From an uncultured Bacilli bacterium (GTDB lineage: Bacteria > Bacillota_I > Bacilli_A > RF39 > UBA660), in the NCBI GenBank assembly GCA_944350315.1, contig CALVON010000033.1, positions 1 through 46,217 of the forward strand: 46,217 nucleotides of DNA, given 5' to 3'. Both the position numbers and the translations under genes were made by a program. The notes below the pieces were generated by a model. It was not told the DNA's origin, searched no databases, and worked only from the letters and a program-made list of their open reading frames with translations. This document shows, piece after piece, positions 5,628 to 46,217 of this stretch (positions are counted from its first letter, which is position 1; the number at the start of each line of letters is the position of its first letter).

Positions 5628-8243
5628 ATGAATTTGTTAAATAAATTAACAATCAAAAATTTAGTGTTAAATAAAAAAAGAACGATTGTTACTGTAATAG
5701 GTATTATGTTATCTGTTTCTTTAATAACGGCAGTATCGACAATGTATAATAGTGCAATTAAATCTTTAATAAATTTTGAAATAAGAGAAAAGGGAGACTT
5801 TCATGTAGCTTATTATAATGTTTCTAAAGAAGAAATAGATACTTTTAGAAATAATAGAAGTATAGAGGAATTAAATTTAGTAGAAAATATTGGTTATGCA
5901 AAAATAGATTCTAAAAATGAATATAAACCTTATGCTTATATAAAAGCATTTACTAAAAGTTCTTTAGAAAATTTATCTATAAAATTAGTAGAGGGAAGAT
6001 TACCAGAGAGTGGTAATGAAATATTAATACCAACACACTTAAAAACTAATGGTAGATTAACTTTAAATGTAGGAGATGTAATTACTTTAGATGTTGGTAG
6101 GAGAGTAGATAATGAAGGTAATGAATTAAATCAAAATAACCCTTATTATACTAGTGAGGAAGAGGGGGATGACTTAATTGAAAAAATTGTAGATACTGAT
6201 AGTGTTACTTATAAAGTAGTAGGTATTATTGAAAGACCGGCATCTAATATAGAGGGTTATACAGCACCTGGTTATACATTTATAACTTATTTTGATGAAG
6301 ATAATATAAGTAATTTTGTTGATATATATGCTAAATATAATAAAAGTGATATAAAGAAAGCTTATGAAGTAACAGCTAACATTATTGGGGTAGATAAAGT
6401 ATTATTTGAAAAATATTATTTAGAAGAATTGGTAACTAGTGAAGAAATTGATAAATATGTAGAACAAATGACTAAGGCTTTATATGATATAAATGTTAAT
6501 GATTATTTAATTGATTTAGAAACTAATCCTATAAAAAATAGTGGCGTTGGAGGGTTAGGAGTAGTAGTTGGTATAGTTATGGCTATTATTGTAGTAACAT
6601 CAGTATTTTGTATTAAAAATAGTTTCGATATTTCAATAACGGAAAAGATTAAACAATATGGTATGTTAAGAAGTGTTGGAGCTACTAAAAAGCAAATAAG
6701 ACATAATGTATTATATGAAGCAACTATTTTAGGAATAATTGGTATTCCGTTAGGAATATTATGTGGATTATTAGCTTCTTATATTTTAATTATTGTAAGT
6801 AATTATTATTTGGGTGACTTTATGTCTTCAGATATAAGATTAATGTTTTCTTTTTCAGTTGTGGCTATAATAATAGCTATTATATTAGGTATAGTAACTA
6901 TTTACGCATCAGCGTTTAAAAGTGCTAAAAAAGCATCTCATATATCGCCAATAGAGTCAATTAGAAATAGTGGGAAAATAAATGCTAAAAAAGTAAAATC
7001 ACCGAAAATTATTAATAAATTATTTGGAATAGGTGGTGAATTATCTTATAAAAATTTAAAGAGAAATAAAAAGAAATATCGTACTACGGTTATATCTATA
7101 ATAGTATCTGTAGCAGTTTTTATTGCTTTGACTAGTTTTATGAACTTTGCATTTTCAGCTATTAAACAAGAACTTAATATAAGTGAATATAATTTATCTT
7201 TGACGGCGACTGATTATACAGATATGGAATATAGAAAAATAATTGAAACAACTTCTTTTGATAATATATCAAATTATACTATATTAAGAGAATCAGAATT
7301 AAAGTTTTCTAATGACCATTATAATCAAGAATATATAGATTGGTTGAATTTAAAATTAGATGATTATATAAATAGTTATATAGGCATTATTAGCTTGGGA
7401 GATTATCAATATAAGAAATATATAGAGTCTCTTAATTTAGATTATAATGTTATGAAAGATAAAGCTATATTAATGGATTATTCTAATGTATCAAGATATA
7501 ATGAAGAAGAAGATAAGTTTGAAAGTAAATATTTACATATATATAACTTTAAAGATCATGATATAATTAGTGGTACTTTATCTGATGAATCTAATTTCAG
7601 TATAGAAATATTTAAAGTAGTAGAAGATAAGCCATTTGCTTTAAGTAATCTTAATAATGCATTAATTGTTAGTGATGAGGTTTTCAATAAATTATTTTCA
7701 TCTAAAGTATTAAGTATATATTATGATTCTAGTAATGCAAATAAATTACAAGATGATATAGATGAATATTTAACTGATGTCGAATATTCTTTAAATAATA
7801 GTGAAGAGCATGTTAGAATGATGAATAATTTATTTACATTAATAGGAATATTTTTATATGGATTTATTATTGTTATAACGTTAATTGGTATTACAAATAT
7901 ATTTAATACAATAACTACTAATATGGAATTAAGGCGTCGAGAATTTGCAATGTTAAAGTCAGTAGGAATGACGAAAAATGAATTTATGAGAATGATTAGG
8001 TTAGAAAGTTTATTTATGGGGTTAAAAGCTTTGATAATAGGAATACCGATAGGAATACTTTTATCATACGTAATATATTATTATTTTGTTTTTAGTTCTG
8101 GATTACCATATAAATTGCCAATAGTAGCAATATTACTTGCAATTATAACAGTGTTTATTTTAATTTCTATTATTATGAAGTATTCTATTAATAAAATAAA
8201 TAAACAAAATACTATTGAAACAATAAGAAATGAAAATATTTAA
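5628..8243 (+). CDS. FtsX/MacB-family ABC permease, duplicated
   Basis: An 871-residue membrane protein with two FtsX units. The first has a membrane segment at about 17-37, an extracellular domain, and three segments between about 305 and 435. The second repeats this with a segment near 485-507, another extracellular domain and three segments near 735-860. Each unit ends its core with the cytoplasmic coupling pattern seen in this family (EKIKQYGMLRSVGATKKQIR and RRREFAMLKSVGMTKNEFMR). A long tail ends NTIETIRNENI. The ATPase is encoded two bases upstream. This is the architecture of peptide/lipid mechanotransmission transporters. A terminator follows the stop. Confidence 0.86.
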   Translation: MNLLNKLTIKNLVLNKKRTIVTVIGIMLSVSLITAVSTMYNSAIKSLINFEIREKGDFHVAYYNVSKEEIDTFRNNRSIEELNLVENIGYAKIDSKNEYKPYAYIKAFTKSSLENLSIKLVEGRLPESGNEILIPTHLKTNGRLTLNVGDVITLDVGRRVDNEGNELNQNNPYYTSEEEGDDLIEKIVDTDSVTYKVVGIIERPASNIEGYTAPGYTFITYFDEDNISNFVDIYAKYNKSDIKKAYEVTANIIGVDKVLFEKYYLEELVTSEEIDKYVEQMTKALYDINVNDYLIDLETNPIKNSGVGGLGVVVGIVMAIIVVTSVFCIKNSFDISITEKIKQYGMLRSVGATKKQIRHNVLYEATILGIIGIPLGILCGLLASYILIIVSNYYLGDFMSSDIRLMFSFSVVAIIIAIILGIVTIYASAFKSAKKASHISPIESIRNSGKINAKKVKSPKIINKLFGIGGELSYKNLKRNKKKYRTTVISIIVSVAVFIALTSFMNFAFSAIKQELNISEYNLSLTATDYTDMEYRKIIETTSFDNISNYTILRESELKFSNDHYNQEYIDWLNLKLDDYINSYIGIISLGDYQYKKYIESLNLDYNVMKDKAILMDYSNVSRYNEEEDKFESKYLHIYNFKDHDIISGTLSDESNFSIEIFKVVEDKPFALSNLNNALIVSDEVFNKLFSSKVLSIYYDSSNANKLQDDIDEYLTDVEYSLNNSEEHVRMMNNLFTLIGIFLYGFIIVITLIGITNIFNTITTNMELRRREFAMLKSVGMTKNEFMRMIRLESLFMGLKALIIGIPIGILLSYVIYYYFVFSSGLPYKLPIVAILLAIITVFILISIIMKYSINKINKQNTIETIRNENI

Positions 8244-35177: not shown

Positions 35178-37612
35178 TGATAAAGATAGTTAATTTAAAT
35201 AAATATTATAATCGTAGAAAAAAGAATCAAATTCATGTTATTAATAATACAAATATTGAATTACCTGATAAAGGACTTGTTGCATTATTAGGCCCTTCTG
35301 GATGTGGAAAGACAACACTATTAAATGTAATTGGTGGACTAGATAATGTAAGTAATGGACATGTTTATATAGATGGAAAAAATATTACAAGTAAGTGTAG
35401 TCATAAAAAAGATAAAATTAGAAATTTAAGTATAGGTTATATTTTTCAAGATTATAAATTAATTGATACGATGAGTGTTTATGATAATGTATCGCTAGTA
35501 TTAAAGATGATAGGTATCAATGATAAAAATGAAATAAAAAAGAGAGTAGATTATATATTAGAAAGAGTTGGAATGTATCGCTATCGATATAGACCGTGTG
35601 GAATGTTATCTGGAGGTCAAAGACAACGAGTAGGAATAGCTAGAGCTTTGGTAAAAAATCCTGATATTATACTAGCAGATGAACCGACAGGTAATTTAGA
35701 TAGCAAAAACACAATTGAAATAATGAATATTATTAAATCTATTTCTAATGATAAACTTGTTATATTAGTGACTCATGAGGTTGAATTAGCTAAATTTTAT
35801 GCTACAAGAATATTAGAGATATATGATGGAAAGATAGAAAAAGATTATATAAATAAGAATAATGATAAAATAGATTATAAACTTGATAATACACTATATT
35901 TAAAAGATTTTAAATATAATAATAAAAATAATGATAATAATATTAATATTGATTATTATAGTGATGAAGTAAATAAATTAAATTTAATAATTATTTGTAA
36001 AAATGGAAATATTTATATTAAAAATAAAGATAATGAAAAATTAGAAGTTATTGATAGTAATTCTAATATTGAGATTGTCAATGATCATTATAAAAAATTA
36101 GATAAAAAGATATATGAAAAATATTCTTTTGATTTTAATAATATTATTAATAATAATATAGACCTTAAGTATAGTTCTGTTTTTAATATTTTTAACCTAA
36201 TTTCTTATGGTTTCAAAAAAGTATTTAAATATAATTTTTTAAAAAAAATATTATTATTGGGATTCTTTTTATCAGCTATTTTTATGACATATTCAATTAG
36301 TAATATATTTGGTCTTTTAAGTGTTGATGATGATGAGTTTATTAAAACTAATAAAAATTATTTAAAGTTAGATAACAATAAGATAAGTGTAGAAGATTTT
36401 AAAAAATATGAAGATGTAGGAGGTATTGAATATATAATTCCTGGTGATAGTCAAGTAAAACTTTTAGTTGATGATAAAAAATACTATCAAACACTTGATG
36501 CAAACTTATCTATTATCGGTTCAATAGCTAGTCTAGATATGATTAGTGAAAATGATGTAGTACTTGGTGAGATGGCTAGTGATAAGAACGAAATACTAAT
36601 AGATAAAATGGTTTTTGATAGAGCTTTGAATATAGAGATGATAGGTTATTATGAATTATCTAAAATGATTGATAGTTTAGTTAGAGTAAAAACAGGTATA
36701 CTTGAATATAAAATTGTTGGGGTAGTAGACTTGGGTAGCCCTTCAATATATGTTTCTGAAAGTGAACTAATTAATATTATTTCTAATAGTAAATATGAAG
36801 GAGATTTATTTGGCAATGAAATTAATGATGTTGTAAATAACAATTTAGTTTATGATTATAATTTATATAAAGAGAAAATAACTATTACTACTGGTAGAGC
36901 TCCTGATAATGATTATGAAGTAATTATTAATGATAATCAGAAAGATATGTATAAATTAAATCAAGAAATTGATAATGTCAAAGTTAATAATAATAAATTA
37001 AAAGTAGTAGGTTTTTATAAATCTTATGATGATACAAATAATTATTATGTTAATAGTAATACTATAAAATATGATTTAATTTTAAATAGTAAAGGAGCAA
37101 TGATATATTCTAAAGATAAAGATAAAACTATTAATGATTATAAGGAAAATTCTATAAATTTATTAGATGTATATGAAATGGATCGAGAAAATTATATTAA
37201 CAGAATTAAAAATTCAGTTAATTCTGGTTTAGTTGTATCATTTGTAATACTAGGAATATCTTTAATAGAAATAATCTTAATGATTAGATCATCATTTTTA
37301 TCTAGAGTAAAAGAAGTTGGGATATATAGAGCAATAGGTGTTAAGAAAAGTGATATTTATAAAATGTTTTCTTCTGAAGCAATAGCAATTACTACCTTAG
37401 TTTCAGTTCCAGGAGTATTATTTATGAGTTATTGTCTATATGTAATGAGTAGTATTAGTATAGTTGCGAATAATTATGTTATAAATATTGGAATTGTAAT
37501 TTTATGTATTATAGTAATGTATTTATTTAATATATTTGTTGGACTAATTCCAGTATTTAATACCATTAGAAAAAGCCCTGCAGAAATTCTTAGTAGTCAT
37601 AGTATTGATTAG
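35177..37612 (+). CDS. ATPase-FtsX fusion transporter, subunit 2
   Basis: An 811-residue protein of the same design: ATPase domain 1-220 (GPSGCGKTT, LSGGQRQR, IILADEPTGNLD, VTHE), a long Asn/Lys-rich linker (about 225-340), a membrane segment near 352-375, an extracellular domain, and three segments near 675-800. The FtsX coupling loop reads SRVKEVGIYRAIGVKKSDI. It overlaps subunit 1 in TAATG and both differ clearly in sequence, so the pair probably forms a heterodimer instead of the homodimer known for MacB. No separate membrane-fusion gene is present. Cargo is unknown. Confidence 0.86.
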   Translation: MIKIVNLNKYYNRRKKNQIHVINNTNIELPDKGLVALLGPSGCGKTTLLNVIGGLDNVSNGHVYIDGKNITSKCSHKKDKIRNLSIGYIFQDYKLIDTMSVYDNVSLVLKMIGINDKNEIKKRVDYILERVGMYRYRYRPCGMLSGGQRQRVGIARALVKNPDIILADEPTGNLDSKNTIEIMNIIKSISNDKLVILVTHEVELAKFYATRILEIYDGKIEKDYINKNNDKIDYKLDNTLYLKDFKYNNKNNDNNINIDYYSDEVNKLNLIIICKNGNIYIKNKDNEKLEVIDSNSNIEIVNDHYKKLDKKIYEKYSFDFNNIINNNIDLKYSSVFNIFNLISYGFKKVFKYNFLKKILLLGFFLSAIFMTYSISNIFGLLSVDDDEFIKTNKNYLKLDNNKISVEDFKKYEDVGGIEYIIPGDSQVKLLVDDKKYYQTLDANLSIIGSIASLDMISENDVVLGEMASDKNEILIDKMVFDRALNIEMIGYYELSKMIDSLVRVKTGILEYKIVGVVDLGSPSIYVSESELINIISNSKYEGDLFGNEINDVVNNNLVYDYNLYKEKITITTGRAPDNDYEVIINDNQKDMYKLNQEIDNVKVNNNKLKVVGFYKSYDDTNNYYVNSNTIKYDLILNSKGAMIYSKDKDKTINDYKENSINLLDVYEMDRENYINRIKNSVNSGLVVSFVILGISLIEIILMIRSSFLSRVKEVGIYRAIGVKKSDIYKMFSSEAIAITTLVSVPGVLFMSYCLYVMSSISIVANNYVINIGIVILCIIVMYLFNIFVGLIPVFNTIRKSPAEILSSHSID

Positions 37613-37644
37613 TGTAAAAATATTTTAATAATTAATAATAAAAA

Positions 37645-37678
37645 TGGCCTTTAAGCATTTTACATAAAGGCCACTTTT
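37645..37678. terminator. Hairpin within the left inverted repeat, likely bidirectional terminator
   Basis: TGGCCTTTA/TAAAGGCCA with an 11-base loop, followed by CTTTT on the plus strand and by a T5 run on the minus strand. It ends the ABC operon and would also stop the minus-strand promoter at 37690-37719 after a transcript of about 45 bases. Confidence 0.65.
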
Positions 37679-37689
37679 ATTATGTATAA

Positions 37690-37719
37690 ATTATAACATA
37701 TTCATGATATTTTTGTCTA
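37690..37719 (-). promoter_or_regulatory. Minus-strand promoter inside the cassette
   Basis: On the minus strand TAGACA (37719-37714), 18 bases, TATAAT (37695-37690) with an extended TGT before the -10. It is conserved in the copy at 46139-46168. No comparable promoter points at the surface gene; the best plus-strand candidate is TTGCAA near 37729 with a poor -10. Confidence 0.6.
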
Positions 37720-37855
37720 TATCTAGTTTGCAAGAAAACTTAAAAATAATTTATGTTATATTTATACAATTCTTTTAATTATAGGGTTTAGCATTAAAAT
37801 AAATAGCCTTTAAGTAAAATGCTTAATGACCTTTTCGGAGAAAGTCGGAGGAAGT

Positions 37856-39652
37856 ATGGATAAGAATAAAAAAATAATAATCATATTATCAGTTTTAACA
37901 GTAATATTTACAGTAATTGGAGGGACACTTGCTTATTGGAGATGGCAAACTACAGAAGCACAAAAAACAAATGTTGTTTTTACTGTTTCAAAAGATTTTT
38001 CATGTGCAGCTGATGGTGGTGGTAATATTGAACCAGGAGATGTGTTAATTGTACCAACAGAAGTGACGGAAGAAAATAGTGCCTATTATATCAAAAGAAC
38101 AGTAACGGTAACCCCAACGATTAATGTAGCAGATAAAACTGTCTATATGGATTTATGGTTAGATATAAATAGTATAGGTGCAGGACTATCTAATAGTGAT
38201 TACTTTATGTATTCATTTACTAAAACAGATACTAGTCCATATGATGATGTAGTTGTAACAGGTAATTTTAAAGGAAAAAAAGTTGGGGATAAGGTAGCAT
38301 TGCTAGACGGAAAAGATTATTTGTCCAGTATAACTGATACATATTATTTATGGATATGGTTAGATGCCGAAGAAACTTCGCCTTCGACAATGAATCAAGC
38401 GTTTAGCTTATCATTAAATGGCAGTTGTACTGATAACGATATTATTAATGAACCAGTATTAGATGAAGGAATGATCCCAATAACCTTTGATGTATCAGGG
38501 GATAATACGATAATAAAAACAGTATCAACAAGTGATAGTAGTTGGTATAATTATTCAAATAAAGAATGGGCTAATGCAATATTAGTAACAGAATCATCAA
38601 GAAGTAAATATTTAGATACAACTAATGTAGAAGTAAATCAATCAGATATCTTAGCATATTTAGTATGGATACCAAGATACAAATATAAAATATGGACATT
38701 ATCTAAAAATAGTACAGGTCAAGAGCAGGAAATAGAAATCGTATTTGAATCAAAAGATGAAATTTCAACTGGCACCCAAGTCGGAGAATATATAACTCAT
38801 CCAGCGTTTTGGTGGGATAATGATAGTGATGGAGTAAGAGATGCTGGTGAAGAATTATCCGGAATATGGGTAGGTAAGTTTGAAACAACGGGAACAGCAG
38901 ATGTGCCAACAATATTGCCTAACTTAGTATCGTTAACTAAAAAAAATATATCCACCCAGTTTCAAATCTCATTAAAATTTGCAGGTGGTACACTATCAGG
39001 AAGTAATGTAACATTTACTGGTTCATCAACATATGGATTAGATAGCAACATTGACAGTCATATGATGAAAAATAGTGAATGGGGAGCAGTAGCCTATTTA
39101 TCACATTCCAAATATGGAGCAAATAGGGAAATATATTTTAATAATAGTAGTAGATATTATACAGGAAGAAGTGGTGGCAATGTTGGTGAAAGTGTATCAG
39201 CTAGTACTAAAGGAAAATATACCTGGGATGGCTTTTTAACTAGTGACAACACTACAAGAGATTTGACTAAAGTTGCTAGTACAACAGGGAATATTACTGG
39301 AGTATATGATATGGTAGGTGGAACAGTAGAATATGTAATGGGAAATTATAATTCTACTATTAAAATTAGTGGTTTTACATCTATGCCTCAAAAAAAATAC
39401 TACGATAAATACACCACTACAAACGGTTTAACTGCATGTAATGGTGGAGTATGTTTTGGCCATGCTTTATCAGAAACGAATTCTTGGTATTCAGATTCTT
39501 TTAATTATGCTTCTAGTTCATATCCATGGTATAGTCGAGGTGGTAGGGCAGATAATAATGGTAAGTTACTTGGGATTTTTATGAATGGTATTGGTGATGG
39601 GGATAGTGATAGTAAAATTAGCTTTCGTGTAGTTTTAGTGAATTTAAACTGA
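37856..39652 (+). CDS. Surface protein with SipW-type signal and FGE-like C-terminal domain
   Basis: A 598-residue exported protein. The signal (KKIIIILSVLTVIFTVIGGTLAYW) resembles SipW-class signals of TasA/camelysin proteins. A beta-rich domain with paired cysteines (FSCAADGGG, SLNGSCTDND) spans about 30-205. From about 215 the sequence has WYNYSNKEWANAILVTES, LAYLVWIPRYKYKIW, LSGIWVGKFETTG, KNSEWGAVAYLSHSKYG, GNITGVYDMVGGTVEYVMGNY and ISFRVVL. This is a formylglycine-generating-enzyme/C-type-lectin-like arrangement found in many gut Firmicutes surface proteins, and it may bind ligands. The inverted-repeat cassette lies directly upstream. ATG at 37856 follows GGAGG. Confidence 0.75.
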   Translation: MDKNKKIIIILSVLTVIFTVIGGTLAYWRWQTTEAQKTNVVFTVSKDFSCAADGGGNIEPGDVLIVPTEVTEENSAYYIKRTVTVTPTINVADKTVYMDLWLDINSIGAGLSNSDYFMYSFTKTDTSPYDDVVVTGNFKGKKVGDKVALLDGKDYLSSITDTYYLWIWLDAEETSPSTMNQAFSLSLNGSCTDNDIINEPVLDEGMIPITFDVSGDNTIIKTVSTSDSSWYNYSNKEWANAILVTESSRSKYLDTTNVEVNQSDILAYLVWIPRYKYKIWTLSKNSTGQEQEIEIVFESKDEISTGTQVGEYITHPAFWWDNDSDGVRDAGEELSGIWVGKFETTGTADVPTILPNLVSLTKKNISTQFQISLKFAGGTLSGSNVTFTGSSTYGLDSNIDSHMMKNSEWGAVAYLSHSKYGANREIYFNNSSRYYTGRSGGNVGESVSASTKGKYTWDGFLTSDNTTRDLTKVASTTGNITGVYDMVGGTVEYVMGNYNSTIKISGFTSMPQKKYYDKYTTTNGLTACNGGVCFGHALSETNSWYSDSFNYASSSYPWYSRGGRADNNGKLLGIFMNGIGDGDSDSKISFRVVLVNLN

Positions 39653-46079: not shown

Positions 46080-46093
46080 TTTTTATATAAAAA

Positions 46094-46122
46094 TGGCTTT
46101 TAAGTACTTTACTTAAAAGCCA
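46094..46122. terminator. Hairpin of the second copy
   Basis: A perfect 13-base stem (TGGCTTTTAAGTA/TACTTAAAAGCCA) with a CTT loop. Relative to 37645-37673 one stem pair changes from C-G to T-A, which keeps the pairing. It also serves to end the popT transcript. Confidence 0.7.
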
Positions 46123-46138
46123 CCGTTATTATACATAG

Positions 46139-46168
46139 ATTATAACATAATCATGGTATTTATGTCTA
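46139..46168 (-). promoter_or_regulatory. Minus-strand promoter of the second copy
   Basis: TAGACA (46168-46163), 18 bases, TATAAT (46144-46139) with extended TGT, the same hexamers and spacing as at 37690-37719. Confidence 0.6.
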
Positions 46169-46217
46169 TATTTAAATTACAAAAATGTTTTTATAAATAT
46201 CTTCTATATTTATACAA

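Follow-up and report, generated by a model that had tools for sequence, protein, structure and literature searches.

The locus studied here raises the question of why a surface-protein gene of an uncultured Bacilli bacterium should carry, between inverted repeats, a promoter that points away from it. The window, by which we mean the whole stretch of DNA analysed, is 46,217 nucleotides long (contig CALVON010000033.1) and belongs to an assembly of 1.18 Mb in 46 contigs (GCA_944350315.1, hereafter G000). The features of this locus, and those of a second one at the contig end, are as follows.

37634..37672, minus strand: left hairpin (37646-37672) with its minus-strand T run (37645-37634), which together are predicted to terminate the OFF transcript
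37649..37669, plus strand: putative left recombination site, CTTTAAG-CATTTTA-CATAAAG (7-base centre flanked by the two arms)
37656..37821, no strand: putative invertible segment of 166 bases, with exchange assumed inside both 7-base centres
37690..37719, minus strand: promoter TAGACA-18-TATAAT within the segment, directed leftward (OFF)
37808..37828, plus strand: putative right recombination site, CTTTAAG-TAAAATG-CTTAATG, with a centre reverse-complementary to that of the left site
37847..37851, plus strand: GGAGG, the ribosome binding site that serves the surface gene, lying beyond the segment
37856..39652, plus strand: surface-protein gene, 598 aa, with an N-terminal membrane anchor and no Pfam family
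46098..46118, plus strand: left site (centre TACTTTA) of the second switch, located where the contig ends; the locus runs on into contig C21 with a right site and another surface gene
46139..46168, minus strand: promoter of the second switch, TAGACA-18-TATAAT, also OFF

The first-pass annotation of this DNA had claimed a minus-strand TAGACA-18-TATAAT promoter within the repeats, directed away from the surface gene at 37856, and this was confirmed. The -35 element (TAGACA) lies at 37719-37714 and the -10 element (TATAAT) at 37695-37690, separated by an 18-base spacer; 11 of the 12 consensus letters are matched, and a TG stands ahead of the -10 (extended -10). The claimed absence of a comparable forward promoter also held, as no forward promoter with at least 9 of 12 matches was found between 37632 and the ATG at 37856. 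The surface gene belongs to a family of about a dozen paralogous genes in G000. The paralogues on contigs C25, C1 and C34 have no sites, and their promoters are directed toward the gene. Both ATAGACAAAAATA and TATAATTTATA are common to the minus strand of the window segment and the forward promoter of the repeat-less C25 paralogue, and no stretch of 11 bases is common to that promoter and the plus strand of the segment. Since the promoter of the repeat-less paralogues is the window promoter reversed, the promoter typical of the family is present in the window, but turned around.

As in an inverton, inverted repeats surround this promoter upstream of the gene. The 21-base repeat with one mismatch was found as originally described, 37651-37671 pairing with 37806-37826, and the gap of 30 bases from the right repeat to the surface gene is correct (37826 to 37856). 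This pair of arms is unique in the window at a spacing of 20-250, and an equivalent repeat appeared in none of 40 dinucleotide-shuffled windows and in none of 3000 shuffles of the local 248 bases. The similarity of the arms stretches to 41 nt at 80% (37642-37682 and 37795-37835).

A DNA search of the genome revealed two further complete copies of the element before surface genes, on contigs C4 and C21, the former being 88% identical to the window locus across the whole unit; their segments span C4:39028-39207 and C21:8-186. At all three complete loci the promoter is directed away from the gene (OFF). Half-elements, made of a left site and an outward promoter with the right site missing, lie on C36 (L172, about 7795-7900), C19 (L171, about 6316-6446) and C43 (L173, 7962-8052); they have lost the right site, and their neighbours, judged by eye, are not surface-like (a tRNA, phosphoketolase-like and rpsF-like genes). 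It should be noted that the right ends of the window (46091-46217) and of contig C34 each overlap the start of C21 by exactly 127 bases. The branch point of this overlap is the left edge of the switch site, giving one switch with two alternative left flanks, perhaps because the site has been rearranged or a repeat has collapsed.

Every site has the same layout of palindromic arms flanking a 7-base centre. The centre is CATTTTA at the window locus and at C4, and TACTTTA at C21, the inverted copies being identical within each locus. Tyrosine recombinases require identical crossover regions. At the window locus the crossover centres agree at seven of seven positions, and the centres match after inversion in seven of nine loci from three species (G000, its sister species G005, and G310 of another genus), even though they vary between loci; two of the three G005 loci have imperfect centres (6/7 and 4/7). 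When the right-hand centres were permuted across all loci, the observed identity was reached 4-5 times in 200000, and with the permutation confined within genomes the signal was modest (p about 0.02-0.04).

The hairpin and T run that had been claimed for the left repeat, in the path of the minus-strand promoter, are real (-24.6 kcal/mol, z -7.2) and sit shortly downstream of an ABC-transporter gene ending at 37612. Read from the OFF promoter, the left hairpin has -24.6, -22.8 and -19.5 kcal/mol at the window, C4 and C21 loci, respectively, with z below -6 and a T run next to it. With the segment flipped in silico, this promoter reads into the right junction instead, which folds at -6.7, -7.4 and -6.4 with z above 0. 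The right site would be unable to form a terminator because its outer arm is degenerate and the ribosome binding site comes next. At all three G000 loci, the terminator is thus predicted to form in the OFF state only, and promoter direction together with terminator folding predicts that the orientation of the segment sets the transcription of the surface gene.

The orientation with the promoter facing the gene, which the first-pass annotation expected from a flip, exists at three homologous loci of G005, a genome of the same genus. Here, three surface genes have the same architecture, with about 160 bases between the sites and a promoter, TTTACA-17-TATAAT, directed toward the gene (ON in three of three); one of these loci is identical to the public contig CAMGAM010000024.1 over 700 bases. 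The distance from TATAAT to the G(G/A)CC of the near site is 17 bases both in the window and at the G005 locus on C9. When the inner segments of G000 and G005 were compared, the flipped alignment was better in nine of nine non-independent pairs of paralogous loci, whose orthology is not proven, and the unflipped alignment was hardly above chance. For the best pair (C21 and G005-C24), 0 of 5000 shuffles attained the local score of the flipped alignment, as against 3492 of 5000 for the unflipped one. The window segment alone, flipped against G005-C78, gave a weaker result (324 of 5000). Opposite orientations are seen between the two species, at paralogous loci, and the window assembly has one of them. 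On the minus strand of the G005 locus on C9 (L255), a second forward promoter, TTGACA-17-TATAAA, lies outside the segment about 35 bases left of the left site, and weaker versions of it are visible by eye at the other two G005 loci.

The window itself holds no recombinase, as had been stated, since all tyrosine and serine recombinase matches of the genome are on other contigs. The genome search for such an enzyme suggested in the first-pass annotation led to a candidate tyrosine recombinase of 322 aa on contig C1 (C1:44833-45798), which keeps the residues conserved in tyrosine recombinases (R154, H259, R262, H285 and Y295). This third tyrosine recombinase occurs in two of the seven genomes of the genus, G000 and G005, which are the two with switches. 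The two proteins are 66% identical and have the same next gene, encoding a surface Ig-like/amidase protein. Neither an orthologue of the C1 recombinase nor, in a DNA search, the element was found in G002 (95% complete); the remaining four genomes of the genus without the recombinase are 70-79% complete.

A different enzyme (XerC/XerD-like, a large serine recombinase or RecA) might carry out the inversion instead, a doubtful alternative that touches just the identity of the enzyme and leaves the remaining explanation intact. The genome also encodes XerC- and XerD-like proteins, a partial integrase and four large serine recombinases. However, XerC- and XerD-like proteins are spread over the genus, including members without switches (G001 has zero tyrosine recombinase matches), whereas the C1 recombinase was found only alongside switches and belongs to a clade that includes likely hsdS invertases. 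In the tree, the G000 and G005 recombinases fall in a 100/100 clade of nine, together with those of G310 (52% identity), G374 and G335 and four hsdS-associated ones. Each of the latter four is placed between two divergent hsdS genes and flanked on either side by inverted repeats of 34-84 bases, and through these neighbours the C1 recombinase resembles hsdS invertases such as PsrA of Streptococcus pneumoniae (PMC7096588); unlike theirs, its putative target is a promoter segment. The distribution suggests that one recombinase clade moves between the shuffling of restriction-specificity genes and the switching of surface proteins.

The four loci with hsdS-flanked recombinases (L202, L203, L204 and L208), in which hsdS was recognised by Pfam in L202 and L204 and by motif in L203 and L208, are probably type I restriction loci subject to phase variation. 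At L209, L210, L212 and L213, more distantly related recombinases (about 40-46% identity) have flanking inverted repeats about 1.1-1.3 kb apart with palindromic arms that differ (CATAAAG..CTTTATG, CGTAGAATA..TATTCTACG). Words of 8-9 bases are common to the G005 sites and the hsdS repeats (shuffle p 0.015-0.05), and the G000 sites have no words in common with these repeats above chance. The idea that the half-sites are hsdS repeats, suggestive for G005 alone, was dropped. No strong inverted repeats that could represent a site next to the recombinase gene were found in the scanned regions of L160 and L197.

In our view, the window locus is very probably a phase-variable promoter switch in which the C1 recombinase inverts the 166-base segment and turns the surface gene OFF and ON. 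The recombinase, encoded elsewhere, would recombine the two inverted palindromic sites. In the OFF state, as assembled, transcription from the promoter would start at about 37683 and run left into the left site, where the hairpin and T run would end a short transcript and keep it from continuing antisense through the upstream ABC-transporter gene. In the flipped ON state, the promoter would face the gene and the surface protein would be made. We infer that inversion by the C1 recombinase is ongoing within the population. Several points speak against this reading, namely the half-elements beside non-surface genes, the imperfect centres of two G005 loci, the modest signal of centre identity within genomes, the distance of the C1 recombinase from the switch, the limited completeness of four of the five genomes of the genus without it, and the uniform states (three of three OFF in G000, three of three ON in G005), which disfavour independent random flipping. 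The predicted state common to all complete switches of a genome may reflect bias, coordination or locking. Meanwhile, a minority orientation could vanish in assembly because the contig ends overlap by 127 bases, far more than the length of the repeats.

Alternatively, the promoter could once have been invertible and now be locked, with relic sites, fixed OFF in G000 and ON in the sister species, and the gene silent or otherwise promoted. The single orientation of all three complete copies in each genome, the existence of half-elements without a right site and a point change in the inner arm of the window's left site (CATAAAG) fit such a history. We nevertheless consider it quite improbable, as the reading frame, ribosome binding site and promoter of the surface gene are all intact, the centres are still identical within a locus despite differing between loci, and the genome has an intact recombinase. 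That no inversion takes place at all, the element being a dispersed non-coding one that combines a bidirectional terminator of the upstream gene, a reverse promoter for a short hairpin RNA and a right arm serving as an mRNA leader hairpin, accords with hairpins directly after stop codons at several loci and with a promoter-hairpin half standing alone at C36, C19 and C43, but is very unlikely because it leaves unexplained why the sister species has the reverse orientation, why the two centres are identical after inversion, why the promoter is shared with the forward promoters of the paralogues and why the recombinase co-occurs.

Paired sites also occur in G310, where three pairs of sites ahead of surface genes were found independently through the paired-site pattern. 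The layout is different in these loci: the left site forms a hairpin whose T run lies within the segment, and flipping costs both hairpin stability and the T run; by pattern, a promoter outside the left site (TAGACA-17-TATACT) was found on C68 only. Among 386 genomes of the family, the paired-site pattern occurred in G000, in G310 and once within a gene in G044, the last being taken as chance. A word search of viral contigs gave three matches, none with a second site, which were likewise taken as chance. It is conceivable, although we regard it as unlikely, that a single recombinase of the hsdS-invertase type has been co-opted as a master switch, bringing dispersed surface switches to the same state in each lineage (three of three OFF, three of three ON and three of three OFF in the three species). 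The same kind of site would then serve two designs, an invertible promoter in the genus of G000 and an invertible terminator in the other genus.

This kind of switch is already known from mycoplasmas and Clostridioides difficile; the proposed one belongs to an uncultured Bacilli group. The mpl (P35) family of Mycoplasma penetrans undergoes multiple independent promoter inversions (Horino et al. 2003, as cited in PMC10502178 and PMC2268961). As far as described there, both systems combine a surface-protein family in a low-GC lineage with a small invertible promoter per gene at several loci per genome. The likeness is one of arrangement, as mpl comprises 38 clustered lipoprotein genes, whereas here a few of about a dozen dispersed membrane-anchored proteins are involved and the rest have fixed promoters. 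In repeat length and segment size, the locus resembles the RecV switches of C. difficile, flg (154 bp between 21-bp repeats, PMC5386303) and cwpV (195 bp between 21-bp repeats, PMC2784873). One tyrosine recombinase, RecV, serves several loci there (PMC5386303), as is proposed here, and an intrinsic terminator has been proposed for the OFF state of cwpV (PMC2784873), as is predicted here. The promoter is inside the segment here and outside it in cwpV; the G310 loci resemble cwpV in having a terminator built from the left site and the segment (PMC2784873). The flg switch was first inferred from opposite orientations across genomes, the same route as taken here. With the invertible promoters of Bacteroides and gut invertons (PMC11892184, PMC8748976), the system has in common dispersed loci and a promoter between inverted repeats, often at surface genes; the bacterial group is different and the likeness is in the layout of the locus. 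No paper describing switches of this type in these bacteria came up in a literature search, a negative of little weight. The analysis extends promoter inversion to a group represented here only by metagenome-assembled genomes, the source bacterium being probably host-associated, and provides a named candidate recombinase and, across three species, nine loci whose sites are laid out alike.

The structural model of the surface protein has low confidence (pLDDT 55) and shows just an N-terminal helix and a beta-rich domain. Its Foldseek matches were discarded as too weak, and a C-type-lectin-like C-terminal domain was a guess for which confirmation failed. From about residue 200 onward, the protein and its relatives (L063-L142) have a C-terminal part in common with many proteins of related genomes that start with the prepilin-like N-terminus GFTLIELLAV; one of these genomes has about 30 such loci.
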